A model generated the notes under the pieces. The model had not been told where the DNA came from. It made no database searches and worked only from the letters and a program-made list of their open reading frames with translations. 61,338 nucleotides of DNA, taken from the NCBI GenBank assembly GCA_029259115.1, contig JAPDJO010000051.1, forward strand, positions 1-61,338, read 5' to 3'. This document shows positions 373 through 25,633 of the stretch, in pieces (the first letter of the stretch is position 1; each line of letters starts with the position of its first letter). This DNA is from Thermoplasmatota archaeon (lineage in GTDB: Archaea; Thermoplasmatota; E2; DHVEG-1; B18-G2). The position numbers and the translations under genes are program-made.

Positions 373-415
373 TAGGTTTAAGTAATGCAGAAAGATTTAT
401 AACCGAAGCGGTAGG

Positions 416-1016: not shown

Positions 1017-1060
1017 TTTTGGGGTAAAGATTTTTACTGTGATCTTCCTATACCTCTTTC

Positions 1061-1805: not shown

Positions 1806-1806
1806 T

Positions 1807-2994: not shown

Positions 2995-2998
2995 TTGG

Positions 2999-4179: not shown

Positions 4180-4208
4180 ATTTTAATTCTTGTATTTCTT
4201 AACGAAAA

Positions 4209-5246: not shown

Positions 5247-6108
5247 AGAGGATCTGCTCAAAGGAGAAAAGATAGAGAAGGTTTTAACTCCTCATCCTCT
5301 CTCATTCATGGGTCTTCAATCAATATGGTTCTTCTTATTGGTCTTTGGTATAATCCTTTGGTGGTCAGCAAACTATTCTCAATACTCAAGTTATTTTAGC
5401 TCATGGATTGTTGTTCTATCCTTATGGTGGGTTGGCTTAATCTTGGCTGGGATTGTTGCATCTCTTGTTTCGATAAGATGGAGATTCTTTTTCCTCTATG
5501 TTTTTGTAGCATCCTTAGGAACCTTTATGGCATGGAAGTTTAATTGGTTAAAGGATGGAGCATCTACAAGTTTCTTTATCCTAATTTACTCTATCTGCGT
5601 ATCTGCTATCATATTTCTAGGAGTTTATGTTTTTGTAAAATCCCACAGATACATACTAACTGATTACAGAATCATATTTAAGGGAGGTGTTCTAAGGAAA
5701 AGAGAGAGGACACTAAGATATGATAAAGTTACGGATGTTGATGGCACTCAAGGCATACTTGGCCAGATTTTTGATTTCGGCACCATAATACCTATAACTC
5801 AATCTGGCTTTGGTCTCGGATCTGATCAGACGTTTGCGGCAGGCGGAGTCGAAGCTAAAGGAAAAAGACTAGGGATATTTGGTCTGGCTGGTGGAGCAAA
5901 AGAGGTAAAGACTCCAAGAGCTAGAACATATTATGAGTTGCATGGAGTTTATCCATATAGAGAGGTAAGGAAGCTCTTGGAGGAATTGATACAGGGACAT
6001 GTCATTACTCCCTATCAGAAGGAACAGGTTGAGTTGCAGAGAGAACAGCTAGAGTTACAGAGAGAAATGAAGGAGCTTTTGGAGAGACAGAAGGAGCTGA
6101 AGGATTAG
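5236..6108 (+). CDS. Membrane protein with bacterial PH-like (bPH2, YdbS-type) domain
   Basis: From ATG 5236 the protein is 290 residues. Four hydrophobic segments fill roughly residues 25-135, followed by a bPH2-type domain (SHRYILTDYRIIFKGGVLRKRERTLRYDKVTDVDGTQGILGQIFDFGTI), which is the hallmark of the YdbS/YdbT membrane family. The C-terminal 40 residues form a Gln/Glu-rich coiled coil (repeats of VELQREQLELQREMKELL). A glycine-rich insert (GFGLGSDQTFAAGGVEAKG) interrupts the domain. The in-frame ATG at 5179 is less likely because it would overlap the upstream gene by 68 bases. Function is unknown; the coiled coil suggests oligomerisation. Confidence 0.75.
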   Translation: MKIEEDLLKGEKIEKVLTPHPLSFMGLQSIWFFLLVFGIILWWSANYSQYSSYFSSWIVVLSLWWVGLILAGIVASLVSIRWRFFFLYVFVASLGTFMAWKFNWLKDGASTSFFILIYSICVSAIIFLGVYVFVKSHRYILTDYRIIFKGGVLRKRERTLRYDKVTDVDGTQGILGQIFDFGTIIPITQSGFGLGSDQTFAAGGVEAKGKRLGIFGLAGGAKEVKTPRARTYYELHGVYPYREVRKLLEELIQGHVITPYQKEQVELQREQLELQREMKELLERQKELKD

Positions 6109-6143
6109 GTTTAAAATCTAAAACTATATAGGGGGGTTGGCAA

Positions 6144-6692
6144 ATGATACCAAAGGCTGTCTTCTTGACCAGAGGAATGGGAGTGCACAAGGATAGATTA
6201 CAATCTTTTGAGCTGGCACTGAGAGATGCAGGTATTGGAATGTGTAATCTCGTGAAGGTTTCTAGCATCTTACCACCGAACTGCAAGATAATATCCAGAA
6301 GTAAAGGGGTAAAGCTTCTGAGGCCTGGAGAAATAACGTACTGTGTTCTCTCCAAAAATGAAACCAATGAACCCTATCGTAAGATATCTGCATCTATTGG
6401 CTTAGCTATACCTAAGGATAAAAATGCTTATGGTTACATTTCTGAGTACCATAGCTTTGGAGAAAGTCATAGAGAAGCTGGAGATTATGCTGAAGATCTA
6501 GCAGCGACTATGCTTGCTACTACGTTAGGCATAGATTTTGATCCTGATAAAGCATGGGATGAAAGAAAGCAACTCTTCAGAATGAGTGGAAAGATAGTAA
6601 AGACCAGGAGCATAACCCAGACTGCGATTGGAGACAAAGATGGAAGATGGACTACAGTAATAGCTGCTGCTGTATTTGTGGAGGATTTGTAG
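6144..6692 (+). CDS. pdaD: Pyruvoyl-dependent arginine decarboxylase
   Basis: The proenzyme, 182 residues, converts arginine to agmatine, the first step of archaeal polyamine synthesis. It self-cleaves at a Ser-Ser bond to create the pyruvoyl group: the sequence NLVKVSSILPPNCK puts the cleavage between S40 and S41. Conserved ISASIGLAIPKD and YISEYHSFGESHREAGDYAEDLAATML follow, including the active-site Glu. A GGGGGG run at 6131-6136 is the ribosome-binding site. It ends 5 bases before the glycosylase gene. Confidence 0.95.
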   Translation: MIPKAVFLTRGMGVHKDRLQSFELALRDAGIGMCNLVKVSSILPPNCKIISRSKGVKLLRPGEITYCVLSKNETNEPYRKISASIGLAIPKDKNAYGYISEYHSFGESHREAGDYAEDLAATMLATTLGIDFDPDKAWDERKQLFRMSGKIVKTRSITQTAIGDKDGRWTTVIAAAVFVEDL

Positions 6693-6697
6693 CGCGC

Positions 6698-7615
6698 ATG
6701 GAAGACGAAGGTATTGCTAGAAGATATCTGTACCTTGATTTTCCTCTGGATTGGAATCTAAAACTTAATTTCTCTGTCTTGCCTGAAAGACCGACCCCGT
6801 GTATAATCAATAGGCAAAAGGAGTGGATGAGACTTCTTGATTTAGAGGGGGAGACTGTACCAGTGATAGTCAAATCTGCTGGTAATATAGAAAATCCTAG
6901 ACTTCTCGTCGAGATACCTAAGGAGATGGAGAAGAATTGGAAAAGGATTGAAAGAGTTATCTTGGATATTCATGGACTGAGAGATGTTAGCGATCTTTAT
7001 GAATTTATGGAGAGAGATAGCGTATTGAGGGGTATCAAAGAGAAATTGTATGGTTTTGGTGGAGCTGGACTTATGGCTGTTAGTGTATATGAAGGTGTGG
7101 TCAAATCCATTATTCAACAACAGATCTCTCTGAAGGTAGCTGAGAATATAACAGCAAATGTTGTGGAAAGATACGGTAACAGGGTTAAATTTCTCGGCAA
7201 TACTATCTATGGATTTCCCAATCCCGAGGTTTTATCCAAACTAGATATTTTGGACTTGAGAAAATGTGGATTAAGCACAAGAAAATCCGAATACATAAAA
7301 GAATTGAGTATCGAAGTATGCAAAGGTTTTGACCTAGAGGATCTCAGAAATAAAGAGAATGATGAGATTATCGAAGTTTTAACTTCATTTAGAGGAGTTG
7401 GAAAGTGGAGTGCTGAATTGGTTATGGTTGCTACGATTGGAAGAAATGTTATTCCAGCTGATGATCTCGGTGTTAGGAAAGCTATTTCTTATTTTTATTT
7501 TGATAACGAATTACAACCTCCTGAAAGGATAAGAAATTTTGCTGAAAGGAAGTTTGGGAGATTTTTGAGAGATTGCTTGGTTTATCTTTTGATGGCTTAC
7601 CGCATGAATATTTGA
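6698..7615 (+). CDS. AlkA-like HhH-GPD DNA glycosylase
   Basis: A 305-residue base-excision glycosylase. The helix-hairpin-helix is FRGVGKWSAELVMVATIGR and the catalytic Asp follows in VIPADDLGVRKA, the AlkA/3-methyladenine or Ogg-like arrangement. An N-terminal beta domain (residues 1-100) and SIIQQQISLKVAENI also match AlkA. There is no iron-sulfur cluster motif. ATG 6698, just after the pdaD stop, is chosen; an in-frame ATG at 6647 would read back into pdaD. The precise damaged base is not predictable. Confidence 0.88.
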   Translation: MEDEGIARRYLYLDFPLDWNLKLNFSVLPERPTPCIINRQKEWMRLLDLEGETVPVIVKSAGNIENPRLLVEIPKEMEKNWKRIERVILDIHGLRDVSDLYEFMERDSVLRGIKEKLYGFGGAGLMAVSVYEGVVKSIIQQQISLKVAENITANVVERYGNRVKFLGNTIYGFPNPEVLSKLDILDLRKCGLSTRKSEYIKELSIEVCKGFDLEDLRNKENDEIIEVLTSFRGVGKWSAELVMVATIGRNVIPADDLGVRKAISYFYFDNELQPPERIRNFAERKFGRFLRDCLVYLLMAYRMNI

Positions 7616-7718
7616 TTTTTCTTTGAGGATGTATTGAAGAATTGCTATAGAATATTATGACTATACACTTTGCTTTTGCTTTTACTTGCTTCTCCTCTAT
7701 CTCATCAATGCAGTTACA

Positions 7719-7730
7719 TTTATATATAAA
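7719..7730 (+). promoter_or_regulatory. TATA box of caspase-like gene
   Basis: An uninterrupted TTTATATATAAA lies 28-39 bases ahead of ATG 7758. Transcription would begin near 7750, giving a leader of only a few bases. Confidence 0.6.
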
Positions 7731-7757
7731 TTTTCCAATTCAAATCGGGGTATAGAC

Positions 7758-9113
7758 ATGAGGGTACTTGCTATACTATCTGTGTGCTTCTTGCTCTTGG
7801 GTTGTATATCCCAAGTGGCGTCAGCCGCAGGGCATTATGTAGACAAGATAAATCGTCAGGGGAGTAGTAACTCTACATCTAATAGTATTGGTAGAAATTA
7901 CAGAGCTGTAATTATCGGAATTTCTGATTATCCTGGAACTCAAAACGATTTATCAACACCTGTTAAAAGTGCATTGGCTATAAAGAGTTGTCTAGAAAGG
8001 GGAAGTAGTTATTATACTGTAAAACTTTTAACTGATGGTTCGGCAACTCTAAGCAACGTGAGAAATGCCCTAGATTGGCTCAAAAGTAAGGCGGATGAAA
8101 ATGATATATCCTTTGTGTACTACTGTGGCCACGGGTCTCAAGTGGAAACAAAGAATCGCCGACAAGAAGGAGACAGTATGGACGAGTGTCTATTCCTATA
8201 CGATGATATAATGCGAGATGATGAGTTTGTAGAGAGGTTGCTAGATATAAAAGGCATAGTGTTTGTCATCCTTGATTGTTGCAAGAGTGCAGGTTTTCAA
8301 GATGATCTGGAATACAGATATGATAAAGATAAGGGACTTTGGGAAGAAACAAAGGTATTCATGGTAACCGCGTTTACTGAAAATCAACTTCATTATGAAA
8401 TACCAGTACTTGGATACGGTCTGCTTTCTTTCCACATAATCGGCACGATGTCTCAAGATCCCGATAATGATGGATCCATAACAATAGATGAGATATATAT
8501 GCTAGCAGGAGAGAATTTTAAAAGAGCGAAGGAAGTTTTTGGTATCAGTTACGAAGGTGAAGTTAATATATACCCCCGCAGGGGGACGAATCACTATTAT
8601 GATTACATGGATACTCCCATAATCAAAGGCTTCAGAAATAAAAGTCCTTGGTTATCAGATCTTTCCATAAGCACCCGTCGTGGAAAATGTGAGTTAGACC
8701 TGAGAATGATTGATCTCGACAAGAACAAAATGAAAATATTCGTGTATTGGGGAGATGGAGAAGGGGAATGGTATGGCCCCTACAGAAGTTACGAGGATGT
8801 TTCCATATCTCATTACTACGATAGGTATGACGATTACAAGATAGGGATTGTCATAAGGGATTCGCATGGAGCAATAAGTATGTGGGAGATCAAGGAGGTC
8901 TCTATTGATAATAAGGATATTACTAAAAATGCAACTGTTAATCCAATAAAAAATGTTCACTCCGAAGAGAAGAAGCATCATAACTCCGTTAAACCGAGAT
9001 TTCATAGAAGAGTGGAAATTTTTAGGCATGGCTCTCTACTACGTTTGATAAAGAATAGACATATCGATATTATCTCTGACATACGGAAATGGATTGATAG
9101 AAACCGATGGTAA
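7758..9113 (+). CDS. Secreted caspase-like (clan CD, C14-type) peptidase with PKD-like domain
   Basis: The 451-residue protein begins with a signal peptide (hydrophobic residues 4-16, then LLGC, a possible lipobox, and a possible ASA cleavage site at about 21-23). The caspase-like domain spans about residues 45-260: YRAVIIGISDYPG, catalytic His125 in YCGHGSQ, and Cys174-Cys175 in ILDCCKSAG, like the DCCHSG of metacaspases. A Ca-loop-like DPDNDGSITIDEIY follows. The part after residue 300 contains YWGDGEGEWYGPY, resembling the PKD-type repeats of the protein at 18410. It acts outside the cell or at its surface. Peptidase activity is inferred from the intact His/Cys dyad. ATG 7758 is preferred over 7686, which lies upstream of the TATA box. 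Confidence 0.82.
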   Translation: MRVLAILSVCFLLLGCISQVASAAGHYVDKINRQGSSNSTSNSIGRNYRAVIIGISDYPGTQNDLSTPVKSALAIKSCLERGSSYYTVKLLTDGSATLSNVRNALDWLKSKADENDISFVYYCGHGSQVETKNRRQEGDSMDECLFLYDDIMRDDEFVERLLDIKGIVFVILDCCKSAGFQDDLEYRYDKDKGLWEETKVFMVTAFTENQLHYEIPVLGYGLLSFHIIGTMSQDPDNDGSITIDEIYMLAGENFKRAKEVFGISYEGEVNIYPRRGTNHYYDYMDTPIIKGFRNKSPWLSDLSISTRRGKCELDLRMIDLDKNKMKIFVYWGDGEGEWYGPYRSYEDVSISHYYDRYDDYKIGIVIRDSHGAISMWEIKEVSIDNKDITKNATVNPIKNVHSEEKKHHNSVKPRFHRRVEIFRHGSLLRLIKNRHIDIISDIRKWIDRNRW

Positions 9114-9156
9114 AGCTTTTCTCCTCTCATCTTTTTTGTGATGATTCCAGCAACAT

Positions 9157-9166
9157 TTTAATATAA
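9157..9166 (+). promoter_or_regulatory. TATA box of ppsA
   Basis: TTTAATATAA lies about 46-55 bases before ATG 9212, with the ribosome-binding site GGAAGGGGG at 9197-9205. The leader would be roughly 25 bases. Confidence 0.5.
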
Positions 9167-9211
9167 CCTGTTTTATCTGGGTTGTCTAAGCGATGTGGAA
9201 GGGGGTTTAAC

Positions 9212-11620
9212 ATGGAGGAAGTGTTCATAAAATGGTTTGATGAGCTTGGGATGAAGGATGTTCCTCTGGTAGGGGGAAAGAATGCCTCTCTTGGAGAGAT
9301 GATTAGAAATCTATCGAGTAAAGGAGTGAACGTTCCAAATGGTTTTGCAATAACCGCCTATGCGTACAAATATACAATAGAGAAAGCTGGAATAGATAAG
9401 AAGATAAGAGAGATTTTGAAAGATTTGGATACTCATGACGTAAAAAATCTTGCAGAGAGAGGAGAAAAGATAAGAAATTTGATTAGAAATACTTCTCTTC
9501 CAAAAGAGCTTGAAGACGAGATAAGAAAATATTACAGAGAACTGGAAAAGATGTATGGAAAGAATGTAGATGTTGCTGTCAGGAGCAGTGCAACAGCCGA
9601 AGATCTTCCGGATGCGAGTTTTGCTGGTCAGCAGGAAACTTTTCTCAACGTTAGGGGAGAAGAGGAGCTTATAGAGAAAGTAAAGGAATGTTTTGCTTCT
9701 CTATTCACAAATAGAGCGATATCATACCGAGAAGACAAGGGGTTTGATCATTTTAGCGTGTATCTCTCTGTTGGTGTGCAGAAGATGGTGAGGTCTGATC
9801 TTGCAAGCTCTGGGGTTATGTTCACTCTAGACACGGAAAGTGGGTTCAAAGATGTTGTATACATAACTGGAGCTTATGGTCTTGGGGAAAATGTTGTTCA
9901 AGGTAAAGTTAATCCCGATCAATTCTATGTTTTCAAACCTACTTTGAAAAAGGGATTTAGGCCTATAATAGAGAAGAAATTGGGAACAAAGGATAAAAAG
10001 TTGATATATGGAGAACAAGGCGGAACCGTGGAAGTTGATGTCGATCCAGAGGACAGGAAGAAATTTGTCCTTAATGATGATGAGATATTAAAGCTTGCCG
10101 AGTGGGCATGCATCATAGAAGAGCATTATGGCAAGCCCATGGATATAGAATGGGCAAAGGATGGAATAACTGGAGAGCTCTTTATAGTCCAAGCGAGACC
10201 TGAGACTGTACATTCTCAGAAGAGTTATGCGACAGTGGAAACCTATATTCTGGAAGAGAAGGGTAAACTTCTTTTGGAGGGAGAGGCGGTTGGCACAAAG
10301 ATAGGTCAGGGAGAGGTCAATGTTATAGAGGATGCAAAGGATATTCACAAGTTCAAGAAGGGGCAGGTTTTGGTAACAGATATGACAGACCCTGATTGGG
10401 AACCTATAATGAAGATTGCATCAGCTATCGTTACAAACAGAGGAGGAAGGACCTGTCATGCAGCAATCGTATCGAGAGAACTTGGGATACCTTGTGTTAT
10501 AGGTACAGGAAATGCAACAGAGGTTCTGAAAAATGGCCAAAAAGTTACCGTGGATTGCTCTGAAGGTATCGGTAGGATATACGACGGATTGCTGAAATTT
10601 AAGGTAGAGAAACTTGATCTCGAGAAGCTTCCGAGAACAAAGACAAAGATCATGATGAATGTTGGTGTTCCTGAAAAGGCATTCTCTCAAGGGATGATAC
10701 CGAATGATGGCGTTGGCTTAGCCAGGGAAGAATTCATAATAAACTCTTACATAGGGATACATCCTCTCGCTCTGATAGAATACGAAAAACTCAAGGAGAA
10801 AGCAAAAGAGGATGAGAAGATAGCAGAGGTTGTCAAGATTATAGAAGAGAGAACTTATGGCTATGAGAATAAAGCAGACTTCTTCGTCGATATGCTCGCC
10901 AGAGGAATAGCAAGGATATCTGCAGCATTCTATCCAAACGATGTGATAGTCAGACTTTCTGATTTCAAGAGTAACGAATATGCGAATCTGATTGGAGGAT
11001 TTTTGTATGAGCCCAAAGAGCACAATCCGATGATAGGTTGGAGAGGCGCATCGAGATACTACGATGAGAAATTCAAGCCAGCGTTTGCTTTGGAGTGTAA
11101 GGCTATAAAGAAGGTCAGGGACGAGATGGGACTTACGAATGTAAAGGTTATGATACCATTCTGTAGAACGCCAGAGGAGGGTAAAAAAGTCATAGAAGTG
11201 ATGAAGGAATTTGGTCTGAAACAAGGAGAGAATGGACTAGAAGTCTATGTTATGTGCGAGATACCATCAAACGTTATCTTAGCAGATAAGTTTGCAGAAA
11301 TCTTCGATGGATTTAGCATAGGATCAAATGATCTAACACAACTAACTTTGGGGCTGGATAGAGACTCTGATCTTGTTGCTCATCTCTTCGATGAAAGGAA
11401 CGAGGCTGTAAAAAGGCTTGTAAAGCAAGTGATAGAAGTAGCTCACTCCCATAAACCAAGGAGAAAGGTCGGGATATGTGGTCAGGCTCCCAGCGATTTT
11501 CCTGAGTTCGCAGAATTTTTAGTCGAGTGTGGCATAGATTCGATGTCCCTGAATCCTGATGTTGTCGTAAAAACGAGGTTGTTGGTTGCAGACGTTGAAA
11601 AGAGACTCGGAATAAGCTAA
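9212..11620 (+). CDS. ppsA: Phosphoenolpyruvate synthase
   Basis: PEP synthase (pyruvate, water dikinase), 802 residues, full length for the family. The N-terminal ATP-grasp domain shows VGGKNASLGEMI and VAVRSSATAEDLPDASFAGQQETFLNV; the phosphohistidine domain has GGRTCHAAIVSRELGIPCVIG with the swivelling His at about residue 416; the C-terminal PEP domain ends with GSNDLTQLTLGLDRDS and CGQAPSD. It makes PEP from pyruvate for gluconeogenesis, or works in reverse in some archaea. With the FBP aldolase/phosphatase at 39.9 kb it supports a gluconeogenic route. ATG 9212 is set by the GGAAGGGGG site; the gene converges with the amidohydrolase and overlaps it by 4 bases. Confidence 0.96.
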   Translation: MEEVFIKWFDELGMKDVPLVGGKNASLGEMIRNLSSKGVNVPNGFAITAYAYKYTIEKAGIDKKIREILKDLDTHDVKNLAERGEKIRNLIRNTSLPKELEDEIRKYYRELEKMYGKNVDVAVRSSATAEDLPDASFAGQQETFLNVRGEEELIEKVKECFASLFTNRAISYREDKGFDHFSVYLSVGVQKMVRSDLASSGVMFTLDTESGFKDVVYITGAYGLGENVVQGKVNPDQFYVFKPTLKKGFRPIIEKKLGTKDKKLIYGEQGGTVEVDVDPEDRKKFVLNDDEILKLAEWACIIEEHYGKPMDIEWAKDGITGELFIVQARPETVHSQKSYATVETYILEEKGKLLLEGEAVGTKIGQGEVNVIEDAKDIHKFKKGQVLVTDMTDPDWEPIMKIASAIVTNRGGRTCHAAIVSRELGIPCVIGTGNATEVLKNGQKVTVDCSEGIGRIYDGLLKFKVEKLDLEKLPRTKTKIMMNVGVPEKAFSQGMIPNDGVGLAREEFIINSYIGIHPLALIEYEKLKEKAKEDEKIAEVVKIIEERTYGYENKADFFVDMLARGIARISAAFYPNDVIVRLSDFKSNEYANLIGGFLYEPKEHNPMIGWRGASRYYDEKFKPAFALECKAIKKVRDEMGLTNVKVMIPFCRTPEEGKKVIEVMKEFGLKQGENGLEVYVMCEIPSNVILADKFAEIFDGFSIGSNDLTQLTLGLDRDSDLVAHLFDERNEAVKRLVKQVIEVAHSHKPRRKVGICGQAPSDFPEFAEFLVECGIDSMSLNPDVVVKTRLLVADVEKRLGIS

Positions 11621-12648
11621 ATGCTCCAGTAATCTGAGAGGATTCTCTTCAGCTCCTTTATCCTTTCTATCGTTATCTCCAATTTCGTGTCAGGTATGTC
11701 CTCTTCTCTTACAATTTCCTCTACACCAAGCAAACCGCAAACTATGTTATAGTAGGATTTTACACTGGCATCACTATTGTATCCACCTCCGAATAGCACC
11801 AAAAGTTTGTTACATGTCTTCTCGCTCAGTTTCTTTATCTCTCTTGCAAAGTAGAAATAAATTGGATATGTGAGAAGGATATCCGCAAGCGGATCGCTGT
11901 GATGTGTATCAACTCCAGACTGATATATGATAATATCTGGTTTGAATTGTAGAACTATATCTGGTACAATTTCATCGAAAGCTCTCTTGTAACTTTCGTT
12001 TCCAGATCCTGGAAGAAAAGGGAGATTTATCGTGTAGCCTTTGCCTTCGTTTTCTCCAATCTCTTCAATGAATCCGCTTCCAGGATAGAGAGTTCTTCCG
12101 TCCTGATGGAAAGATATCAAAAGTACATCTGGGTCTTTGTAGTATATGTATTGCGTACCATTTGCATGGTGGACATCTAAATCTATGACTGCGAATTTCT
12201 TCACGCGATATCTATTTCTTAAGTACTCTATAGTTACAGCTATATCATTGAAAAAGCAGAAGCCAGATGATGCATCTCTCGATGCATGGTGAAAGCCGCC
12301 TAAAGGGTTTATAGATATTTTCGAATCTTTAAGTAAAGATTCTCCTCCTTCCTTGCTACCTCCGCATGCCAAAGATGCTATTTCAAATATTCCTCTTGGA
12401 GCTGGTGTGTCTATCGAAAGATATCCGCCTATTCTGCTAAGAAATCTCACCTTTTCTATGTACTCTCTAGTGTGTACTCTTAGAAGATCTTTTTCTTCGC
12501 ATGGTTTCGGTTCTTTAATTTCTAAATATCTGTCTATTTTACGCTTCTTTAAGAAATTCAAGGTTCTTCTCGGTTTGTCTCCTATAAGTGGATGATTCTC
12601 TCCCAGATCGTATTCGTTGTATCTCTCGTGATAGTAGAACTTTATCAT
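11617..12648 (-). CDS. Histone deacetylase-like amidohydrolase (AcuC/HDAC family)
   Basis: This 343-residue protein has the HDAC fold signatures: HPLIGDKPRR at the N-terminus, GGFHHASRDASSGFCFFND (active-site His pair), VIDLDVHHANGTQYI (metal-binding Asp and His), SGVDTHHSDPLADI (second metal Asp) and LLVLFGGGYN near the end. All expected metal and catalytic residues are present. In archaea and bacteria such enzymes remove acetyl groups from proteins or small amides such as polyamines. It overlaps the ppsA end by 4 bases tail to tail. The substrate is unknown; an acetylpolyamine substrate is possible. Confidence 0.9.
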   Translation of the reverse strand: MIKFYYHERYNEYDLGENHPLIGDKPRRTLNFLKKRKIDRYLEIKEPKPCEEKDLLRVHTREYIEKVRFLSRIGGYLSIDTPAPRGIFEIASLACGGSKEGGESLLKDSKISINPLGGFHHASRDASSGFCFFNDIAVTIEYLRNRYRVKKFAVIDLDVHHANGTQYIYYKDPDVLLISFHQDGRTLYPGSGFIEEIGENEGKGYTINLPFLPGSGNESYKRAFDEIVPDIVLQFKPDIIIYQSGVDTHHSDPLADILLTYPIYFYFAREIKKLSEKTCNKLLVLFGGGYNSDASVKSYYNIVCGLLGVEEIVREEDIPDTKLEITIERIKELKRILSDYWSI

Positions 12649-12704
12649 GATCTTAGCAAGATAAAATCTTTTTATTATCTTTTTCTTTCATCTGTTGTGT
12701 GGAT

Positions 12705-13238
12705 ATGAAGGAATTTCCTTTGATCTATGTTAAGAATGGTAAAATCATTGATGAAGATGGAAGAAAAATTATGGATTGGAAAGAAAAGGCGGATAGATTT
12801 GCAGAGATATATATCATGGATCTCGATGGGATAGAAAGGAACGAGCCGAATCTGGATTTTTATCAATCTATTTACAAGAAGAAGTGGATAGATGCATTTC
12901 CAAGGAAATTCGAAGATGTTATGGATTTGGTGGTTGCTGGAGGGAACAAGATAGTTATCAGAGAGGGGTTTGATGATAGAGATACCGATAGAGTATTTGA
13001 TGAAGTCGATGTCGAGCTGTATCTATCTTTATCCAAAGATTGCTCATTGAAACATTACAATTGGAATGGTTTTGTTTACCTCTTGAACAGGAAGATGAAC
13101 TTCGAAGTGAAGGAGTTCTTATCAGAGTTATCCAACGTCTTCATAATAGCCAGGCGCAAAGAATATATCGATTTTGATTGGGCTGATGAGAACAAAATTG
13201 ATGGTGTTGCTTACCCTTTGTGGGAGATGGAAGCATGA
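12705..13238 (+). CDS. HisA/HisF-related TIM-barrel-like protein, shortened
   Basis: The 177-residue protein opens with FPLIYVKNGKIIDED and has YIMDLDGIERNEPNLDFYQSI followed by AFPRKFEDVMDLVVAGGNKIVIREG, an order of elements like the first half of HisA-type isomerases (vDLdG, then an AG...vv strand). The second half is divergent and the protein is shorter than the roughly 220-250 residues of intact HisA. Catalytic activity is doubtful. GTG 12699 is an alternative start. Its TGA overlaps the next ATG (ATGA at 13235), so it is translated with the DUF2240 gene. The HisA relationship is a motif-level guess. Confidence 0.55.
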   Translation: MKEFPLIYVKNGKIIDEDGRKIMDWKEKADRFAEIYIMDLDGIERNEPNLDFYQSIYKKKWIDAFPRKFEDVMDLVVAGGNKIVIREGFDDRDTDRVFDEVDVELYLSLSKDCSLKHYNWNGFVYLLNRKMNFEVKEFLSELSNVFIIARRKEYIDFDWADENKIDGVAYPLWEMEA

Positions 13239-13711
13239 TAGAGGATGCAAAGAGAGTGATAGCATTTGTGTTTGAAAGATTGGGAAAAAGAGGTGTTTCC
13301 CCATCTGATTTTTATCTCACCCTATCAATGGATCTTAGATGGTGCTCTGTAGAGAAAGCAAAGAGATTCTTAAGATATGCGATGGATAAAAAGTTAATAT
13401 CAAATATAGAGGGGAAGCTCTTTCCAAATTTTCCTCTCGAAGATATAGAGATTCCTTTTGGATTCAGACCTAAGATCTTTGATGAGATAGAGGTTGAAGA
13501 AGAGCTCAAGGATAGAATAGTCCACTGGATATCTGAAAATACTGGTAAAGGTATAGATGAGGTGTGGAGAGAGGTTGAAAGTATTTCAGCAGAAAAATCT
13601 CTCAATCTTGAAGTATCAGCTTTATTCTATGCAAACAAACTGGGTTTAGATGTCTCCAGTTATGCGGATGAGGTCAAGAAATTCCTAGAAAGTGAAGGAG
13701 TAAAGGGATAA
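13235..13711 (+). CDS. DUF2240 family archaeal protein
   Basis: The 158-residue protein matches the archaeal DUF2240 pattern: an N-terminal winged-helix-like part (SDFYLTLSMDLRWCSVEKAKRFLRYAMDKKLI), then FPNFPLEDIEIPFGFRPK and a helical C-terminal half. The role is unknown. ATG 13235 lies in an ATGA overlap with the upstream HisA-like gene; the longer frame from 13220 is unlikely. The last 38 bases overlap the end of the convergent transporter gene. Confidence 0.8.
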   Translation: MIEDAKRVIAFVFERLGKRGVSPSDFYLTLSMDLRWCSVEKAKRFLRYAMDKKLISNIEGKLFPNFPLEDIEIPFGFRPKIFDEIEVEEELKDRIVHWISENTGKGIDEVWREVESISAEKSLNLEVSALFYANKLGLDVSSYADEVKKFLESEGVKG

Positions 13712-14975
13712 GCAGAATGCCCATACAACTACTTCGCCTTGCTCCGAGGAAGATTGGCAATAAGCCTATGGATGCCCCAACTAATAGAATGACAATTCCT
13801 ATGGTTCCAGAGAAGGCTAGAACGAGAAGAAGAATAAAGATGATGCTGATTTTTATCATGCTCTGATAAGATATTCTTCCCATCCTTTTAGCTATTGTTT
13901 TGCCAAGATAGCATGTTAAAGGGAATGATAGGGATGTAGATATCACGATCGGAATCAGGAGATAAACCAAGCTGTAGGGAGGTAAGATGTTACTCCATCT
14001 ATCTGGTCTTATTAGATTGTTAACAATTACAGCCACTCCGCTTCTTGCTTTCTGTATTATGAAAAGATTTGCTATTGTAGCTATTGCTGCAGATGTGTTC
14101 ACAGAAGATAATGTTATTATTGTTTGTTTCTCATCTGTTCTTCCTCTAAAAACCAGAGCAATTATCGTTCCTATAGCTGTAGTTATTCCCGGTACTATTG
14201 ATACAAAGATGCCAGATAATGTTCCTGTAATTGTAGAGATTATTGAGGACTTCTTTTCCGATTCTGTAAGTTCTGGCTCGATGACAGCTTGAGATTTTAT
14301 CTCTGTTCTGGATATGAATGAGGATATCAGTGTAGAGAATCCAAAGAGACCTGCCAGAGCAGGGAAAAGAGGGGTTGATGGGAAATCTATCAAAGGATTT
14401 AGTGGCAGTTTTAGTACTACCATTCCGTATACTCCTGATAAGATCAAGACAGTAACAGAGATTACCATTGCTTTCTTTGTTTTCTCTGTTAGGACCATTA
14501 TCGCTATCACCGCTATCAAAATCCATGGCATCAGGCTCTTAAGATCCTGATACAGATTTAGAGGATCTGCCAATAGAAATTTGATAGGTACTAGAAGAGA
14601 TAGAGTGAGTACAGCTGATCCAAAGCTTCCGATTGCAGATAGAACTATAGCTTCATATCCTCTGCCTTTGAGCAATAGAGAGTGGGCAGGTAGCAAAGTT
14701 AGAGCAACGTCTTCTTCCGGCGCCCCAAGGAACGTCGCTGGAATTATATTTGAGAAAGTACTTGCTATGTATGCAGAGACAATCGTTGAAGAGATCATCA
14801 ATGGAACGAGTATCGGCTCTATTCCGAGATATTCTGATAGGCTCCAAAACATTGTTTGAATTGAAAGTAGGAGCAGAGAGGTAGTATTTATATGCATTCC
14901 TGGAACGAGAGAGATTATCAATCCTATCAAAAACCCAAGTAGGGAAAAGATAAAGATGTAAAGAATCTCAATCAA
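13674..14975 (-). CDS. TctA/DUF112-type membrane transporter
   Basis: This 433-residue integral membrane protein has about ten hydrophobic helices and the internal duplication typical of the tripartite tricarboxylate transporter permease (TctA, DUF112) family: GLIISLVPGMHINTTSLLL near residue 17 and GIFVSIVPGITTAIGTIIA near residue 260, each carrying the VPG motif. The APEEDVALTLLPAHSLLLKGRGYEA stretch is typical of the archaeal branch. No TctB or TctC gene is nearby, which is usual in archaea. The solute is unknown. It shares 8 bases with the OB-fold gene upstream, indicating co-transcription. Confidence 0.85.
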   Translation of the reverse strand: MIEILYIFIFSLLGFLIGLIISLVPGMHINTTSLLLLSIQTMFWSLSEYLGIEPILVPLMISSTIVSAYIASTFSNIIPATFLGAPEEDVALTLLPAHSLLLKGRGYEAIVLSAIGSFGSAVLTLSLLVPIKFLLADPLNLYQDLKSLMPWILIAVIAIMVLTEKTKKAMVISVTVLILSGVYGMVVLKLPLNPLIDFPSTPLFPALAGLFGFSTLISSFISRTEIKSQAVIEPELTESEKKSSIISTITGTLSGIFVSIVPGITTAIGTIIALVFRGRTDEKQTIITLSSVNTSAAIATIANLFIIQKARSGVAVIVNNLIRPDRWSNILPPYSLVYLLIPIVISTSLSFPLTCYLGKTIAKRMGRISYQSMIKISIIFILLLVLAFSGTIGIVILLVGASIGLLPIFLGARRSSCMGILLIPLLLHFLGIS

Positions 14976-15576
14976 TCCTTTCCACCTCTACAGATAAGAT
15001 GTAATAGGAGAGTTTATTGGGATTGTAGAGAAATTTTCCCTTTAACCAGATCTTATCTCCCTTGGATATGTTTCTATTTCCTATCAAAGGATCTGTTACT
15101 CTTATTCTGTGATCGTTGTCTTCTATCTCCATAAAATCTTCTTCCAGTTTCCTCACATATCCTGATACATTGACATAGCTGTTGAGATATTTCTTGGGAT
15201 TCTTTGCTAGTTGCCAGATCTTTACTTCTACAACTCTACTCTCTAACTTGGAAATTTTATCCGCAACTATCTCAAGTTCCTCTCTGTATCTCTGCACTCT
15301 TCCAACAACCTCGACTCTATCGCCAACAAAAACATCCTTTTCCCCATATGCAAATATCTTCCCCTCTCCACTCTCATCAACTAAAGTCATTATTGTGTTT
15401 CCTCCTGACGTGATATCAATATCTACGATTGTTCCTTCAGCGAGTACAACATCTCCTTCGTGCTTTTCCAAATCTTCAAGATAGGTCTTCTCTGGACTGA
15501 CAAAGCTAGAAAGTATAAACAAAAGAACAAGACCAGAAACAGCAAAAATTGTTGATATTTCTACTCTCCTCATCAT
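14968..15576 (-). CDS. Membrane-anchored protein with tandem OB-fold domains
   Basis: The 202-residue protein has one N-terminal transmembrane or signal-anchor segment (residues 8-26) followed by two OB-fold-like domains: [15 protein letters not shown]...[27 protein letters not shown] and [20 protein letters not shown]...[14 protein letters not shown]. Such domains outside the membrane usually bind oligosaccharides or nucleic acid. It is the first gene of a two-gene unit with the TctA-type transporter and diverges from cdc48. The specific function is unknown. Confidence 0.75.
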
Positions 15577-15597
15577 CGAAATTTAATGATAGAAAGA

Positions 15598-15604
15598 TTT
15601 ATAT
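15598..15604 (+). promoter_or_regulatory. TATA box of cdc48
   Basis: TTTATAT lies 39-45 bases before ATG 15643, with GAGGGAGA just ahead of the start as the ribosome-binding site. This favours ATG 15643 over the upstream ATG 15586, which would precede the promoter. Confidence 0.6.
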
Positions 15605-15642
15605 CCATATGGCTTTATGGTGTCTCGATTTCGAGGGAGATC

Positions 15643-17856
15643 ATGACAAAGACAAAAGAAGTCTACCTTAAGGTTGCTGAGGCATTCCAGCAAGATGTTG
15701 GTTATGGAAGAGCTAGAATAGATACCCAAACTAGGATAGAGCTGGATCTGGCTATAGGAGATATCGTAGAGATTGAGGGAGAGAAGGTTACCGCTGCTAC
15801 AGTATGGAGGGCACATCCAAGTGATGAAGGGAAGAACATCATTAGGATAGATAATCTGACTAGGAAAAATGCAAAGGTTTCTATAGGGGATTCCGTAAAA
15901 GTTAGGAAAGCCGAGGTCAAAGAGGCTCAAGAAGTTACGATGGCTCCTCTCATCTCTGAGGGGCAAAGAATAGAGTTTGGCATAGGTATAGAAAATCTTG
16001 TCAGAAGAGGTTTATTGAGAAGACCCGTGGTAAAAGGAGATACGGTTATCGTTCCAGGCATCGCTCTCTTTGGTAGTGCTTTACCTTTTGGTATAGTAAA
16101 TACGGTTCCAAAAGGTGTGGTTGTTATAACAGAGGAGACAAAATTGATCGTGAAAGAAGAGGCGCCTTCTCTCAGAGAGCTTGAGGCTCCAAGAGTTAGT
16201 TACGAAGACATAGGAGGATTGAAGGAGGAGCTGAGGAAAGTAAGAGAGATGATAGAACTTCCTCTAAAACACCCAGAACTATTTGATAGATTGGGTATAG
16301 ATCCACCTAAAGGTGTTCTGCTATATGGTCCTCCAGGCACAGGGAAAACACTTATAGCCAAAGCAGTGGCAAATGAGAGTGGTGCTAATTTCTATGCTAT
16401 AAATGGCCCAGAGATAATGAGTAAATTCTATGGTCAGAGTGAGGAAAACCTCAGAAAGGTCTTTGAAGAAGCAGAAAAAAATGCCCCAGCAATAATTTTC
16501 ATTGACGAGATCGATGCCATAGCTCCGAAGAGAAGCGAGGTTCATGGAGAGGTTGAAAGAAGGGTGGTCTCTCAACTTTTAACTCTTCTTGATGGTCTCA
16601 AAGGTAGGGGAAAGGTAATTGTAATAGCCGCAACCAACTTACCAGATGCTATAGATCCCGCTTTGAGGAGGCCTGGGAGATTTGATAGGGAGATAAGGAT
16701 TGGCGTACCTGATAGAAATGGAAGGAAGGAAATTTTACAGATTCATACTCGAAGCATGCCAAAGAGTGAAGATGTTGACCTTGATTATCTCGCAGATGTT
16801 ACTCATGGTTTCGTTGGAGCTGATCTTGCTGCTCTTGCTAGAGAGGCAGCGATGAATGCATTGAGAAGATATCTGCCGGAGATTGATTTGGAGAAGCCTA
16901 TACCAGCAGAAGTACTAGAGAAGATGGTTGTAACGATGGATGACTTCAAAAATGCATTGAAAGGTATAGAGCCTTCAGCTATAAGAGAGTTCTTTGTCGA
17001 GGTTCCAAAGGTAACATGGGATGATGTTGGTGGATTAGAGAATGTAAAACAGGCTTTGATAGAAGCTGTAGAGTGGCCTATAACAAGACCAGATTCCTTC
17101 AAAAGGTTAGGAATAAGACCACCCAGAGGAATTCTTCTATATGGTCCTCCTGGAACTGGGAAGACCTTAATTGCTAAGGCTGTGGCAAACGAGAGCAATG
17201 CTAATTTCCTATCTATAAAAGGTCCTGAGATATTCAGCAAATGGGTTGGGGAAAGTGAGAAAGCTATAAGGGAATTATTCAAGAGAGCAAAACAGGTTGC
17301 ACCTACAGTTGTATTCCTAGATGAACTGGATGCAATAGCTCCGAGGAGAGGATCTTACGAAGGTTCTCATGTTACAGAGAGTGTTGTCAATCAGCTTTTA
17401 ACGAGCATAGATGGTTTGGAGAGTATGGAAGGCGTTGTTGTCATAGGAGCTACGAACAGGCCAGACATAATAGATCCTGGTTTACTGAGACCAGGAAGAT
17501 TTGACAGACTCATACTTGTTCCGGCGCCAGACAAAAAGGCTAGATTAGAAATTTTCAAGATTCATACCAAAAACATGCCCCTAGCTGAAGACGTAGATCT
17601 AGAAGAACTCGCTGAAAGAACAGAAGGATACTCTGGAGCTGACATAGAATCTCTGTGTAGAGAGGCAGCGATGAATGCATTGAGGAAAGATATGGATGTA
17701 AAGAAAGTTACGTTGGAGAACTTTGAAGAGGCTTTCAAGGTTGTAAAGGGATCGATAACCAAAGAGATGATGGACTACTACAAGAGGTTTGAAGAGGAGT
17801 TAGGAAAGAGATTGGCCAAAAAGGATAAAAGGGAATTGGAGATTCAATATCTATAA
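15643..17856 (+). CDS. cdc48: CDC48/VCP/VAT family AAA+ ATPase
   Basis: A 737-residue hexameric unfoldase. The N-domain (double-psi barrel, [19 protein letters not shown], residues 6-90) is followed by two AAA modules with Walker A GPPGTGKT at about residues 229 and 502, Walker [13 protein letters not shown] and [12 protein letters not shown], and arginine-finger [10 protein letters not shown] and [10 protein letters not shown] segments. It unfolds proteins, often feeding the proteasome. The C-terminus ends IQYL, close to but not a clear HbYX proteasome-docking motif because the residue before Tyr is Gln. The PRC-barrel gene follows after 17 bases. Confidence 0.97.
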
Positions 17857-17873
17857 TAAAGAGGTGGATTAAA

Positions 17874-18110
17874 ATGAAGATACCTGAGAGTGAGTTGAGA
17901 GGAAAAACTGTAATGACTGAGGGTGGTTTACTAATAGGGATACTAAGGAACATAACCATGGATCAGAGGACGGGAGAACTGAAGAATCTCTTAGTAGAAC
18001 CTTCTGAGGACATTGACACTAGATTATATCATCTAGATGAAAAAGGACATATAGTTCTAGACTTTGACTCTGTGAAGTCTGTAAAGGATGTTGTTATTGT
18101 TAAAGATTGA
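17874..18110 (+). CDS. PRC-barrel domain protein
   Basis: The 78-residue protein is a single PRC-barrel: LRGKTVMTEGGLLIGILRNITMDQRTGELKNLLVEP, typical of small archaeal PRC proteins. GAGGTGG at 17862-17868 is its ribosome-binding site. Family members are found beside cell-division and RNA-processing genes in archaea, and some (CdpB) are division proteins, but a role here cannot be assigned. It is followed by a T-rich stretch and the proposed replication origin. Confidence 0.85.
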   Translation: MKIPESELRGKTVMTEGGLLIGILRNITMDQRTGELKNLLVEPSEDIDTRLYHLDEKGHIVLDFDSVKSVKDVVIVKD

Positions 18111-18145
18111 TTTCTGATTTTTATCTTTTAATTTTTAAGAGTTTG
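18111..18145 (+). terminator. Oligo-T transcription terminator after the PRC-barrel gene
   Basis: Directly after the stop codon the coding strand runs through several T tracts (TTTCTGATTTTTATCTTTTAATTTTT). Archaeal RNA polymerase terminates intrinsically on such U-rich tracts without a hairpin. Confidence 0.45.
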
Positions 18146-18153
18146 AGGGGAGA

Positions 18154-18175
18154 GACCCCTTTATTTCGTGTGGAA
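18154..18175 (-). promoter_or_regulatory. ORB element, left copy
   Basis: Read on the reverse strand: TTCCACAC GAAATAAAGGGGTC. It differs from the right copy at two positions only. The G run points away from the AT-rich core, as expected for Orc1/Cdc6-binding ORBs flanking an unwinding element. Confidence 0.78.
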
Positions 18176-18264
18176 ATTATAATCTTCTATACTCCAGAAA
18201 TTTTTATTTTATTATTTTTATTAATCTATATCTCAAACTTTTAGCTTTTAATCAGTTTTAAGAC

Positions 18265-18286
18265 TTCCACAAGAAACAAAGGGGTC
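18265..18286 (+). promoter_or_regulatory. ORB element, right copy
   Basis: Reads TTCCACAA GAAACAAAGGGGTC on the forward strand, an inverted match (20 of 22) to 18154-18175. It fits the known archaeal ORB pattern of a TTCCA-type dyad arm plus G-string. Confidence 0.78.
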
Positions 18287-18409
18287 CCCGCTTGGAAAAA
18301 TTTAGACAATGATTAATAGAACAGCCACAAAATATTTACACTTCCAATTTATTTAAAAAACCAACATCCGGGGTTTTTGTTTACCTTGGGTGTGAAGGAG
18401 GAGATAAAC

Positions 18410-19600
18410 GTGAGAGGAAAGATATGGATGTGTTTGATAATTTGTTTGCTTTTTGCTGGCAATGTTCTAGCCCTATCAAATAACTCAAATAATATAAGTG
18501 GAAAAGTTGTTGCCAGAATAACATATAGAAGTAATGTACGTTCTATACAGACTCTACAACCAATAGTTGTCATAACACAACCACAAGACGGAGCAGTTGT
18601 TACGGATCCCCATCTTGTGGTTCGTGGATATGCTATGGATGAAGCTGGGATGAATTACTGGGAATGGGAATGGCACTGGAAGGGAGGTTCATATAGCAAT
18701 AGCTCATATTTTCAAATCGCTGAATATGTTGAATTCAGAATAGACATATATGGACTGCATTCTGGATGGAACCTAATCATAGTTAGATTTAAAAACATAT
18801 ATGGCGCCATCGGCGAGGACTCGGTAAATGTTACATATAATCCACCAAACAATCCACCAAATAAACCTTCCAAGCCAGAAGGTCCAAATAAAGGGAAAGT
18901 TAAGGAAACACTATATTTCAATACGGTTACAACAGATCCAGATGGTGATTCGCTGGAATATCTGATTGACTGGGGAGATGGTACCAACACAGGATGGCTT
19001 GGTCCGATTACTTCAGGCACTCCATTTGAAACATTCCATGCGTGGGATGAGCCTGGTACATATGCAGTCAGAGCAAAGGCGAGAGACATTCCATACCTAG
19101 AAGAGAGCGAATGGTCGGACACTCTGATTGTAACCATCGTTAGTGAAGGTAATAATCCTCCTTCAAAACCAGATAGACCGCAAGGCCCAACTAATGGTAT
19201 GATAGGCGTTACATATACCTATTCCTCACGTTCTGTAGATCCTGACGAAGACCAGATATATTATCTATTCGATTGGGGTGATGGTAGCAACTCAGGATGG
19301 ATAGGACCTTTTGAGTCTGGCCAGGTTGCCAGCGCCTCCCACAAGTGGAGCAAGGTAGGATTCTATCAGGTAAAGGTTAAAGCAAAGGACACTGAGGGAA
19401 AAGAAAGCGAGTGGTCGGATCCTCTACCCATAACTATGCCAAAGAGTAAAAATATCAAAGAAAGATACCATGGGGGACAGATATTCCAATTACCAATTTT
19501 AAGCCGCCTCAAACTATTCAAAACACCTACTTTCATGTATTTTAGAACTTTATTCAGCCCTATTATAGGTATGAAAAACTATAAACAAAAACTGATATGA
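18410..19600 (+). CDS. Secreted protein with tandem PKD-like domains
   Basis: From GTG 18410, preceded by the strong site AAGGAGGAG (18395-18403), the protein is 396 residues with a clear signal peptide (WMCLIICLLFAGNVLALS). Residues about 45-140 are an Ig-like domain (VVITQPQDGAVVTDPHLVVRGYAMDE). Two PKD-type repeats follow, each with PPxKPxxPxGP, DPDxD, then IDWGDGTNTGWLGP or FDWGDGSNSGWIGP, and KAKDxExSEWSDPL. The tail is basic without a PGF-type anchor. It presumably acts outside the cell in adhesion or as an extracellular binding protein. It sits between the origin and cdc6, an unusual place for a surface protein. Confidence 0.82.
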   Translation: MRGKIWMCLIICLLFAGNVLALSNNSNNISGKVVARITYRSNVRSIQTLQPIVVITQPQDGAVVTDPHLVVRGYAMDEAGMNYWEWEWHWKGGSYSNSSYFQIAEYVEFRIDIYGLHSGWNLIIVRFKNIYGAIGEDSVNVTYNPPNNPPNKPSKPEGPNKGKVKETLYFNTVTTDPDGDSLEYLIDWGDGTNTGWLGPITSGTPFETFHAWDEPGTYAVRAKARDIPYLEESEWSDTLIVTIVSEGNNPPSKPDRPQGPTNGMIGVTYTYSSRSVDPDEDQIYYLFDWGDGSNSGWIGPFESGQVASASHKWSKVGFYQVKVKAKDTEGKESEWSDPLPITMPKSKNIKERYHGGQIFQLPILSRLKLFKTPTFMYFRTLFSPIIGMKNYKQKLI

Positions 19601-19670
19601 AAAAACACTGAATCAACAAAATTAAAAACTAAAAACACATAACGAAAATTCCACGCGGGGAGGATCAATT

Positions 19671-20912
19671 ATGGTATCTGATGTATTTGACTCTCTCTTA
19701 GAAAAAAGCTCACTTTTTATCAATAGAGAAGTCTTAAGACCAACCTATACCCCAGAGGTTTTGCCTCACAGAGAAAAAGAAATAGAAAATCTTGCTCAGA
19801 TATTTTTACCAGCTCTGAGAGGAGAGGCACCGTCAAACGTGTTCATATATGGCAAAACAGGCACGGGAAAAACAGCTGTAACTAAGTATGTTGGAAAACA
19901 GCTTATAAAGAAGGGAGAAGAAAGAAAAGTCAATGTAAATTTCATATACATGAATTGTGAGGTTGTTGACACTCACTATAGACTTTTACAGAATATAGCA
20001 AATCACATCATAGATAGGTGGGAAGACAGGATACCATTTACAGGTTTACCAACAGATGAAGTATATGCAAGATTAACAAAGGCTATGGATGAAAAGGGAG
20101 GAGTTACTATAGTTGTCCTAGATGAAATTGACAAACTTAAGGGAGACGAAGCTCTCTACACTCTAACAAGAATAAACTCAGATCTATCGAGAGCTAAAGT
20201 CTCGTTGGTAGGTATATCAAACGATTTAAAATTCACAGAATTTCTCGATCCGAGAGTAAAATCATCTCTCGGAGAAGAAAATATGGTATTTTATCCTTAT
20301 GATGCAAGGCAACTTCAAGATATATTAGAACATAGGGCAAAGAAAGCCTTCAAGCCAGATGCTTTAGCTTCATCTGTAATACCATTATGCGCCGCCTTAG
20401 CTGCGCAGGAGCATGGAGATGCGAGAAGAGCCCTCGATTTATTGAGGGTATCCGCTGAGCTGGCAGAGAGAGAAAAAGCTGCAAAGGTTACTGAAAAACA
20501 TGTTAGAAAAGCTTTACATAAGATAGAACTCGATCATATTACAGAGGTCATTAAGACGTTGCCTTTACAGTCAAAAATCCTTCTCCTAGCTATAGTGAGA
20601 GAGGAAAGAGAAAAGAAGGCAACAGGTCTTAAGCCAAGCATGACAACAGGAGAGGTTTATGAGAGATACAAGCAACTCTCTAAGAAGTTGAAGATAGAGA
20701 GCTTAACACAAAGAAGAATAGCAGATCTTATATCAGAACTGGATATGCTCGGTATAATAACTGCAAGGGTGATATCAAAAGGGAGATATGGAAGAACTAG
20801 AGAAATAGAGTTATCCACGCCATCAAGTGAGATAATAAGAATCCTCCAGGATGATGATACAGTGAATCCTCTTATTCTCTATGGAGGAAGGGGACAAACA
20901 AGACTAATTTAG
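19671..20912 (+). CDS. cdc6: Orc1/Cdc6 replication initiator
   Basis: The 413-residue AAA+ initiator binds ORB elements and loads the MCM helicase. Walker A is YGKTGTGKTAVTKYV (about residues 60-74), Walker B VVLDEIDKLKG (about 157-167), sensor 1 VSLVGISNDLKF and sensor 2 EHGDARRALDLLRV. The C-terminal 120 residues are the winged-helix DNA-binding domain. GAGGATC at 19660-19666 is the ribosome-binding site. Its stop overlaps by 4 bases the end of the convergent permease gene. Confidence 0.96.
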   Translation: MVSDVFDSLLEKSSLFINREVLRPTYTPEVLPHREKEIENLAQIFLPALRGEAPSNVFIYGKTGTGKTAVTKYVGKQLIKKGEERKVNVNFIYMNCEVVDTHYRLLQNIANHIIDRWEDRIPFTGLPTDEVYARLTKAMDEKGGVTIVVLDEIDKLKGDEALYTLTRINSDLSRAKVSLVGISNDLKFTEFLDPRVKSSLGEENMVFYPYDARQLQDILEHRAKKAFKPDALASSVIPLCAALAAQEHGDARRALDLLRVSAELAEREKAAKVTEKHVRKALHKIELDHITEVIKTLPLQSKILLLAIVREEREKKATGLKPSMTTGEVYERYKQLSKKLKIESLTQRRIADLISELDMLGIITARVISKGRYGRTREIELSTPSSEIIRILQDDDTVNPLILYGGRGQTRLI

Positions 20913-23854: not shown

Positions 23855-25633
23855 CTAAACTTTATTTTCCCTCAAAACCAAAACAACAGCAAAGATAACT
23901 AGGAGGAATAAAGATACCACAATCAAGATTGCATAGTCAATCTTTTCTCGATCATGTTTTGGTTCTTTTTCATATTCGCCCGACAGGAAGGCGTATATCT
24001 TTGAGAAACCCTGTTTGAAATTACCCTCCTCCATCTCTTTCACTCCACTTTCAAAAAACTCGAATCTGTCATCACTCAGATTTCCAGTAACTTTCAATTC
24101 CTCAAACCTCAACCTAGCTATGCTTTTTGCTATCTCGCCGAGCAACTCCAAATCTTTCTTGTCTAAATCATCTGAAAGAGCTAAAAATTTTGATATACTC
24201 GATCTGTAATCTTTACCCCATATTATAGGAATGACTTTTTCTTTCTCTCTTAGAGAAACAATAAACAACTCGGTTAGATACGCTTGTCTTTGCAGTTCGA
24301 GATCGATATTTGTAAGAAAATCGGAAGGATCTTCCCCCTTTTCAATCAGACTCCTCGCTATTTTTTCAGCTTTCTCTACTTCGCTTATAAAAATATCTTC
24401 AACCTTGCTGGCATAACTTGAAAATCCACCATGCCCAAAGAGATTCAAAATCTTTCTCGCAAGTTTTGCAGCATCTCCGTTTTCATAGGGATCCAAGATT
24501 TCTTTGCAACATATGTGTACAGGGATGTAGATGGATGAACACTGATCAGGAGCAAACCACATGCAACTCAGATACTCGTAATGTCTGTAAGGAATTTTAC
24601 ATATGGCTGTAGCTTTATTGAATCTCTCGCACATCCCTCTGATACCTTTGATATCATCGACATGCAACCTAGATAGATTCATCAAATCCTTTACATCTAT
24701 CTTCCCATACCTTTCCTTTAATCTATCAAGAATCTCCTTTTCCCACACTTTGTACTTATAGCAAACTCGTAGATCCACTCTCTTTCCATCTATCCTCAAA
24801 ACCTCTATCCAGAATGGATCAACAAGTTTACCCTCTTTTACTTTGATAAATACATCTTTCCCTAGAGGCCATAGTTTTACATATACTCCGTTCTTCTCTA
24901 TGTCTACCACTTTTATGCCAAGAACACCTCCCAATCTAACGATCGATCCTTTCCTAACGAATCTTTCTTTTTCAAGATCGAAAGATTTTGAGATGAACGC
25001 TCTTCTAATCAACCTATACTTCCACAGATCCTTCGGGTAATTTGACATGACTAAGATGTCTTTTATCTCCTTTATGCTATATCTGGCAACATCTCCTTCC
25101 ATTACATAAGCCTTTCTTGGGCCAACAACAAAGAGATTCTCGGACACGCCAGGCGCATGCATATCTACGACCTCTTTTAGTAGATCTATAGCTTCATCTT
25201 CATCATCTGCAGACTGACATGCATATCTTATCCAGTCAAAATCATCCCAGGACGTTCTAAGAGGATTTATCCAATAAGATGGAGAATCAGCATCTCCATA
25301 CGCTATGCCAGCATCACTCAATGCTATTCCTGCTTTGACTATGTTTGGCGGAGCATCTCCTTCTGTCACTACTCCTATAAATTTATGCTCAACAATGTAT
25401 TCTTTCTCGTCTCCCTTAATATTTGGAAGGTGATATCTATACTTATATCCAGGATATACCATGCATAGAACTTGAGGTCCAGGTCTACTAGGATCTCTAA
25501 CTTTCATGAGTATGTTAAAATCCCCTGCTGTAGCATCACCCATAACAATTACATCTTTGCATGCCATTGATGACAAACTCGAGAACGGTAAAAGTAACAA
25601 AACTATCAAGGCAATCCAGTATTTCTTTTCCAC
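23855..25633 (-). CDS. Secreted membrane-anchored Ntn-hydrolase-like protein (C69/acyltransferase-type)
   Basis: The 592-residue protein starts with GTG, followed by a signal peptide (WIALIVLLLLPFSSLSSMA) ending directly before Cys25 in ACKDVIVMGDATAGDFNILMKVRD. A Cys exposed at a new N-terminus followed by this strand pattern is typical of peptidase C69 / penicillin-acylase-like Ntn hydrolases. The Ntn domain covers about residues 25-300, then a mostly helical part, and a single C-terminal transmembrane helix (YAILIVVSLFLLVIFAVVLVL) with a short basic end. It would act on the outer face of the membrane, as a dipeptidase or amidase. The family call rests on the N-terminal motif. Confidence 0.7.
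   Translation of the reverse strand: MEKKYWIALIVLLLLPFSSLSSMACKDVIVMGDATAGDFNILMKVRDPSRPGPQVLCMVYPGYKYRYHLPNIKGDEKEYIVEHKFIGVVTEGDAPPNIVKAGIALSDAGIAYGDADSPSYWINPLRTSWDDFDWIRYACQSADDEDEAIDLLKEVVDMHAPGVSENLFVVGPRKAYVMEGDVARYSIKEIKDILVMSNYPKDLWKYRLIRRAFISKSFDLEKERFVRKGSIVRLGGVLGIKVVDIEKNGVYVKLWPLGKDVFIKVKEGKLVDPFWIEVLRIDGKRVDLRVCYKYKVWEKEILDRLKERYGKIDVKDLMNLSRLHVDDIKGIRGMCERFNKATAICKIPYRHYEYLSCMWFAPDQCSSIYIPVHICCKEILDPYENGDAAKLARKILNLFGHGGFSSYASKVEDIFISEVEKAEKIARSLIEKGEDPSDFLTNIDLELQRQAYLTELFIVSLREKEKVIPIIWGKDYRSSISKFLALSDDLDKKDLELLGEIAKSIARLRFEELKVTGNLSDDRFEFFESGVKEMEEGNFKQGFSKIYAFLSGEYEKEPKHDREKIDYAILIVVSLFLLVIFAVVLVLRENKV

Follow-up and report, generated by a model that had tools for sequence, protein, structure and literature searches.

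In Sulfolobus islandicus, a mutagenesis study of oriC1 describes a 130-bp ORB-DUE-ORB unit that requires both of its ORBs in vivo (PMC12141716). An 11-bp motif, ucm, lies in the unwinding region of Sulfolobales and Aeropyrum origins, where it is bound by UBP, and is essential in Sulfolobus. In Haloarcula hispanica, the minimal oriC1 origin precedes a conserved cdc6 gene and consists of two inverted ORBs with A+T-rich DNA between them, and haloarchaeal ORBs carry an extended G-string together with an inner G-rich inverted repeat (PMC3936714). Methanomassiliicoccales have two orc1/cdc6 genes, and their ORBs occur mostly in pairs close to one of them (PMC4153887).

The window analysed here, a stretch of 61,338 nucleotides, corresponds to the whole of contig C8 in a draft genome of 1.4 Mb (94 contigs, 98.7% complete, 5.5% contaminated). 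At about 18.2 kb it contains two inverted 22-bp ORBs, a left one on the reverse strand (TTCCACACGAAATAAAGGGGTC, 18154..18175) and a right one on the forward strand (TTCCACAAGAAACAAAGGGGTC, 18265..18286). Both are canonical and fit the archaeal consensus, agree with each other at 20 of 22 positions and direct their G-strings away from the 89 bp between them, so that the ORB-gap-ORB unit measures 133 bp in total. Recounting the letters returned the same positions and the same identity as the preliminary description of this DNA. Each box is followed by a C-rich extension, which on the left reads TCTCCCCTC after GGGGTC (18145..18153, reverse strand; a tendency seen in many relatives) and on the right CCCGCTTGG (18287..18295, forward strand), giving GGGGTCCCC.

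This layout resembles Sulfolobus oriC1 (ORB3-DUE-ORB2), where inverted ORBs also surround an A+T-rich region within approximately 130 bp, although three ORBs are present there and two in the window. Outward-pointing ORBs around an A+T-rich region are likewise shared with the oriC1 of haloarchaea (Haloarcula hispanica, Haloferax). In contrast to the haloarchaeal boxes, the G-string of the window is followed by C-rich sequence, and 18145-18295 contains neither the extended G-string nor the internal G-rich inverted repeat of the haloarchaeal subtype. The pairs beside orc1/cdc6.1 in Methanomassiliicoccales, which also belong to Thermoplasmatota, have nearly the same ORB consensus, but their spacing and side vary and several of them lie downstream of the gene. 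We consider the site to be a chromosomal replication origin of the archaeal oriC1 type with a probability of about 0.92. It is standard in design, conserved across relatives and of the known oriC1 kind.

The two ORBs stand out in their own genome. Within the 61-kb window, they represent the sole inverted repeat that matches at 20 or more of 22 positions within 250 bp. When the window was searched for the ORB-like 20-mer with up to three mismatches, only two places were hit, both of them the ORBs (0.18 expected by shuffling), and every other site in the genome carries three mismatches. Using a search model (R1) built from an alignment (A3) of the ORB sites of relatives, from which the ORBs of the window were excluded, we recovered the two boxes from the genome at E 4.2e-6 and 6.4e-5, and the next match had an E-value of 0.36. 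A short inverted match between 18285-18297 and 19649-19661 most probably reflects GGGGAGG, the Shine-Dalgarno-like sequence of orc1. We also asked whether the leader of orc1 (19590-19630) retains a degenerate third ORB, because a relative of the same genus (G001) has an ORB there, and the alignment gave no convincing remnant.

The gap enclosed by the ORBs (18176..18264) is the presumed duplex unwinding element. It has 82% A+T versus 60.5% for the window as a whole, and no other stretch of its length in the window is as rich in A+T. Among 61,250 segments of 89 bp, the A+T maximum was reached only by those overlapping the gap, and the nearest-neighbour stability of the gap is among the lowest few of this set. 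The preliminary description had seen about 90 A+T-rich bases here, which agrees with our count, but had added that nothing else in the gap appears to have a function. The latter statement is unproven and too strong: GAAATTTTTAT (18197..18207, forward strand) recurs in each of the three genomes that represent the genus, 19-23 bp inward of the left ORB, a conservation for which function and common descent cannot be separated with so few close relatives. GAAATTTTTAT could be a promoter-like element, and the gap may hold further elements.

Downstream of the pair lies an orc1/cdc6 initiator gene (19671..20912, forward strand), whose 413-residue product has an AAA+ ATPase domain, a Cdc6 lid and a C-terminal winged helix and belongs to the conserved Orc1-1/Cdc6-1 class. 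The solved structure closest to it is that of Sulfolobus Cdc6-1 (2qby_A, E 4.5e-115), followed by 2v1u_A, A. pernix ORC1 on ORB DNA. As in Sulfolobus, orc1-1 is thus close to the ORBs and encodes a protein nearest to the Cdc6-1 structure of that genus; in the window, however, the gene starts 1.4 kb off, with one PKD-domain gene between. The latter (18410..19600, forward strand) encodes a probably secreted protein of 396 aa from a large paralogous family, and a partial paralogue on contig C47 is 76% identical. In this order, a single genome can hold 70 or more matches to the family. On the simplest reading of the sequences, the PKD-domain gene is likely an insertion in the lineage of the window, because orc1 is immediately preceded by an ORB in two relatives, G001 and G003; other histories could apply as well, because the contigs of both relatives break in the gap. 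On the other side, the origin is directly preceded by a PRC-barrel gene (17874..18110, forward strand), a conserved neighbour, and by a gene for a CDC48/VCP-type AAA ATPase (15586..17856, forward strand), which is conserved on the left within the family. The genome encodes two further Orc-like proteins, at C1:77334-78443 and, as a weaker third member, at C2:59463-60245 (approximately 30% identity). The genome-wide scan with model R1 detected no ORBs near either of these genes.

The unit of cdc48, PRC-barrel gene, ORB, A+T-rich gap, ORB and orc1 was found again in relatives, whole or in pieces. In G004, a member of the same family, an intact ORB pair with a gap of 127 bp follows the cdc48 and PRC-barrel genes, and orc1, 4.4 kb from the pair and inverted, is separated from it by a peptidase-like gene. 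This gene, predicted to encode a secreted protein and without a Pfam match, is located on the far side of orc1 in the window (23855-25633) and at about 2853-4368 of contig C132 in G004. Relative to orc1, the gene thus differs in side between the window and G004, as an inversion with an endpoint close to the origin would produce. Two further relatives, G001 of the same genus and G003 of the same family, have their ORBs on different contigs: the left one comes after the PRC-barrel gene, and the right-facing one stands upstream of orc1 at a distance of 56 to about 105 bp. Here we infer the pairing, because the contigs end inside the gap. G002 contains the left half of the unit and then other genes. 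Contig ends inside the origin gap were seen in G001 (C46 and C49), G002 (C88) and G003 (C79 and C117), and assembly therefore seems to fail there in these three relatives.

Conservation extends beyond the family. In more than 20 genomes of the sister family, the left and right ORBs are located approximately 310 and 140 bp upstream of orc1, respectively. Methanosarcinales relatives, Methanomassiliicoccales and haloarchaea have ORBs at the equivalent place of their orc1 loci, and euryarchaeal orc1 loci usually have one left-facing and at least one right-facing box, pointing outward. Because ORB pairs upstream of orc1 recur across the order and Euryarchaeota, comparison of the loci identifies the site as an orthologue of the widespread oriC1. 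Genomes of genus g11 contain one further perfect ORB at a great distance from orc1, nearly identical in sequence among them (G022:C1:597577, G016:C1:2085653, G025:C36:27956, G040:C92:22651 and G050:C53:1604).

The comparison with relatives also bears on whether the boxes might instead be a transcriptional control site, through which Orc1 or another protein regulates the downstream genes and at which no replication starts. The gene that follows the unit varies, being a PKD-domain gene in the window, the peptidase-like gene in G004 and orc1 in G001, whereas ORB-gap-ORB stays. The boxes are intergenic and upstream of two co-directional genes, as a control site would be, and Orc paralogues such as Orc1-2 can be transcription regulators (PMC9738581). 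Nevertheless, boxes that point outward from the most A+T-rich DNA are in keeping with an origin, and a skew break, described below, coincides with them; we regard pure transcriptional control as extremely improbable.

Origins of the sister family differ from that of the window in their gap. They share two conserved blocks with the consensus roughly GACGTnAGTAtntCC.. and TATTTGAATATTnCGATTTTTAAAAwTAT, which reach 0.73 and 0.98 bits per column, compared to 0.27 and 0.50 for the remaining gap positions. A 67-bp model of this element (about 65 bp) gave one match per genome, at the origin, in each of the seven tested sister-family genomes that have the orc1 side of the origin assembled. Matches at the origin had E-values from 2.5e-7 to 1e-15 and all others were above 0.02; examples in the gap between the ORBs are G028:C88:13668-13733, G046:C1:312456-312519 and G016:C1:1927886-1927949. 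In the family of the window, the model found no match in any genome tested, and the element was not found in the gap of the window itself (PWM p of 0.1-0.2; with the element model, no match in its own genome below E 0.1). The sister-family element is similar to the ucm of Sulfolobus in position but not in demonstrated function.

The right ORB of the sister family is altered as well. At the place of the G-string, the 30 aligned origins read CCCC (14 of 30) or GGCC (11 of 30), with GGGG-like sequences in the few that remain. The spacing of the altered letters from GAAA is unchanged, and the left ORB keeps GGGG nearly always. Loci with an altered right ORB upstream of orc1 include L021, L029, L030, L040, L041, L264, L265, L267, L269-L271 and others. 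A broader proposal, which we put forward as doubtful, is that origins of this order combine ORBs with an extra gap element read by a further factor, that CCCC and GGCC ORBs are tolerated, and that binding of the initiator is asymmetric. The extra element would be about 65 bp long in the sister family and diverged or shorter, around GAAATTTTTAT, in the genus of the window.

Raw GC skew in 2-kb steps was dominated by gene direction; strand composition was analysed as gene-strand-corrected skew with an unconstrained change-point search. The best break fell between the stop-to-stop frames ending at 17853/18107 and those starting at 18319, i.e., at the ORB pair. With positions 1-18110 taken as the left and 18319-61338 as the right side, whole-gene corrected GC skew had means of +0.08 on the left and -0.05 on the right (p 0.0025-0.006, depending on the ORF cut-off), and GC3 skew changed from +0.124 to -0.070 (R2 0.38), a break that none of 2000 permutations matched in strength. 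Five control stretches of 60-120 kb each from the same genome gave R2 values of 0.08-0.17 and p values of 0.045-0.8. AT skew did not break at the ORB pair. To the right of the pair, the strand carries less G than C, the reverse of the bias that is usual for leading strands in bacteria. In four complete genomes of the sister family, skew did not change significantly at the ORB pairs, with G021 leaning the same way as the window, and skew as an origin marker is therefore lineage-dependent and not general in the order.

The position of the break is relevant to the possibility that the origin is dormant. Here, the unit would be intact and bound by Orc1, and most replication would start elsewhere, for example at an origin that lacks canonical ORBs and serves the second paralogue, or through recombination. 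The genome does encode a second Orc paralogue (C1:77334-78443) and is a draft of 94 contigs, and Thermococcus kodakarensis can replicate without its origin, both the origin and Cdc6 being dispensable there (PMC5663688), so the presence of an origin does not prove its use. However, the strongest skew break in the sampled part of the genome falls exactly at the ORB pair, which implies long-term use, and both ORBs are conserved in the family and the order. We therefore judge dormancy to be very unlikely.

Taken together, the unique ORB pair, its conservation with orc1, the extremely A+T-rich gap and the break in skew count for an oriC1-type origin, and the skew null in the sister family, the reversed polarity and the 1.2-kb gene between the pair and orc1 count against it. 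The preliminary description had proposed a compact two-ORB origin and had named three observations that would contradict it: no skew inflection at 18.2 kb, many equally good ORB copies elsewhere, or a better ORB cluster beside another cdc6 gene. None of the three was made, as corrected skew breaks at the pair, the mismatch scan and model R1 found no equally good copy in the genome, and neither the C1 nor the C2 paralogue has an ORB beside it. The origin reading thus holds, with uniqueness, conservation and skew behind it and firing expected by analogy, and the view of a gap devoid of other functional sequence goes too far.

From work on the origins of Sulfolobus, Aeropyrum and Haloarcula, we infer how the site would operate. 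The Orc1/Cdc6 protein encoded at 19671-20912 would bind each ORB with fixed polarity, its winged helix contacting the TTCCA/GAAA half and its AAA+/initiator-specific motif the G-string. Two oppositely oriented initiators would then flank the A+T-rich gap. The gap would melt, MCM would be loaded, and two forks would leave in opposite directions.

These results locate a probable origin on the draft genome of an uncultured lineage, apparently of Thermoplasmatota, with skew and conservation agreeing on one intergenic spot. With the origin placed on the genome, growth rate would become estimable from metagenome read depth. The variants of the sister family, with CCCC or GGCC in the right ORB and an additional element in the gap, represent natural tests of the roles of the G-string and the unwinding region.
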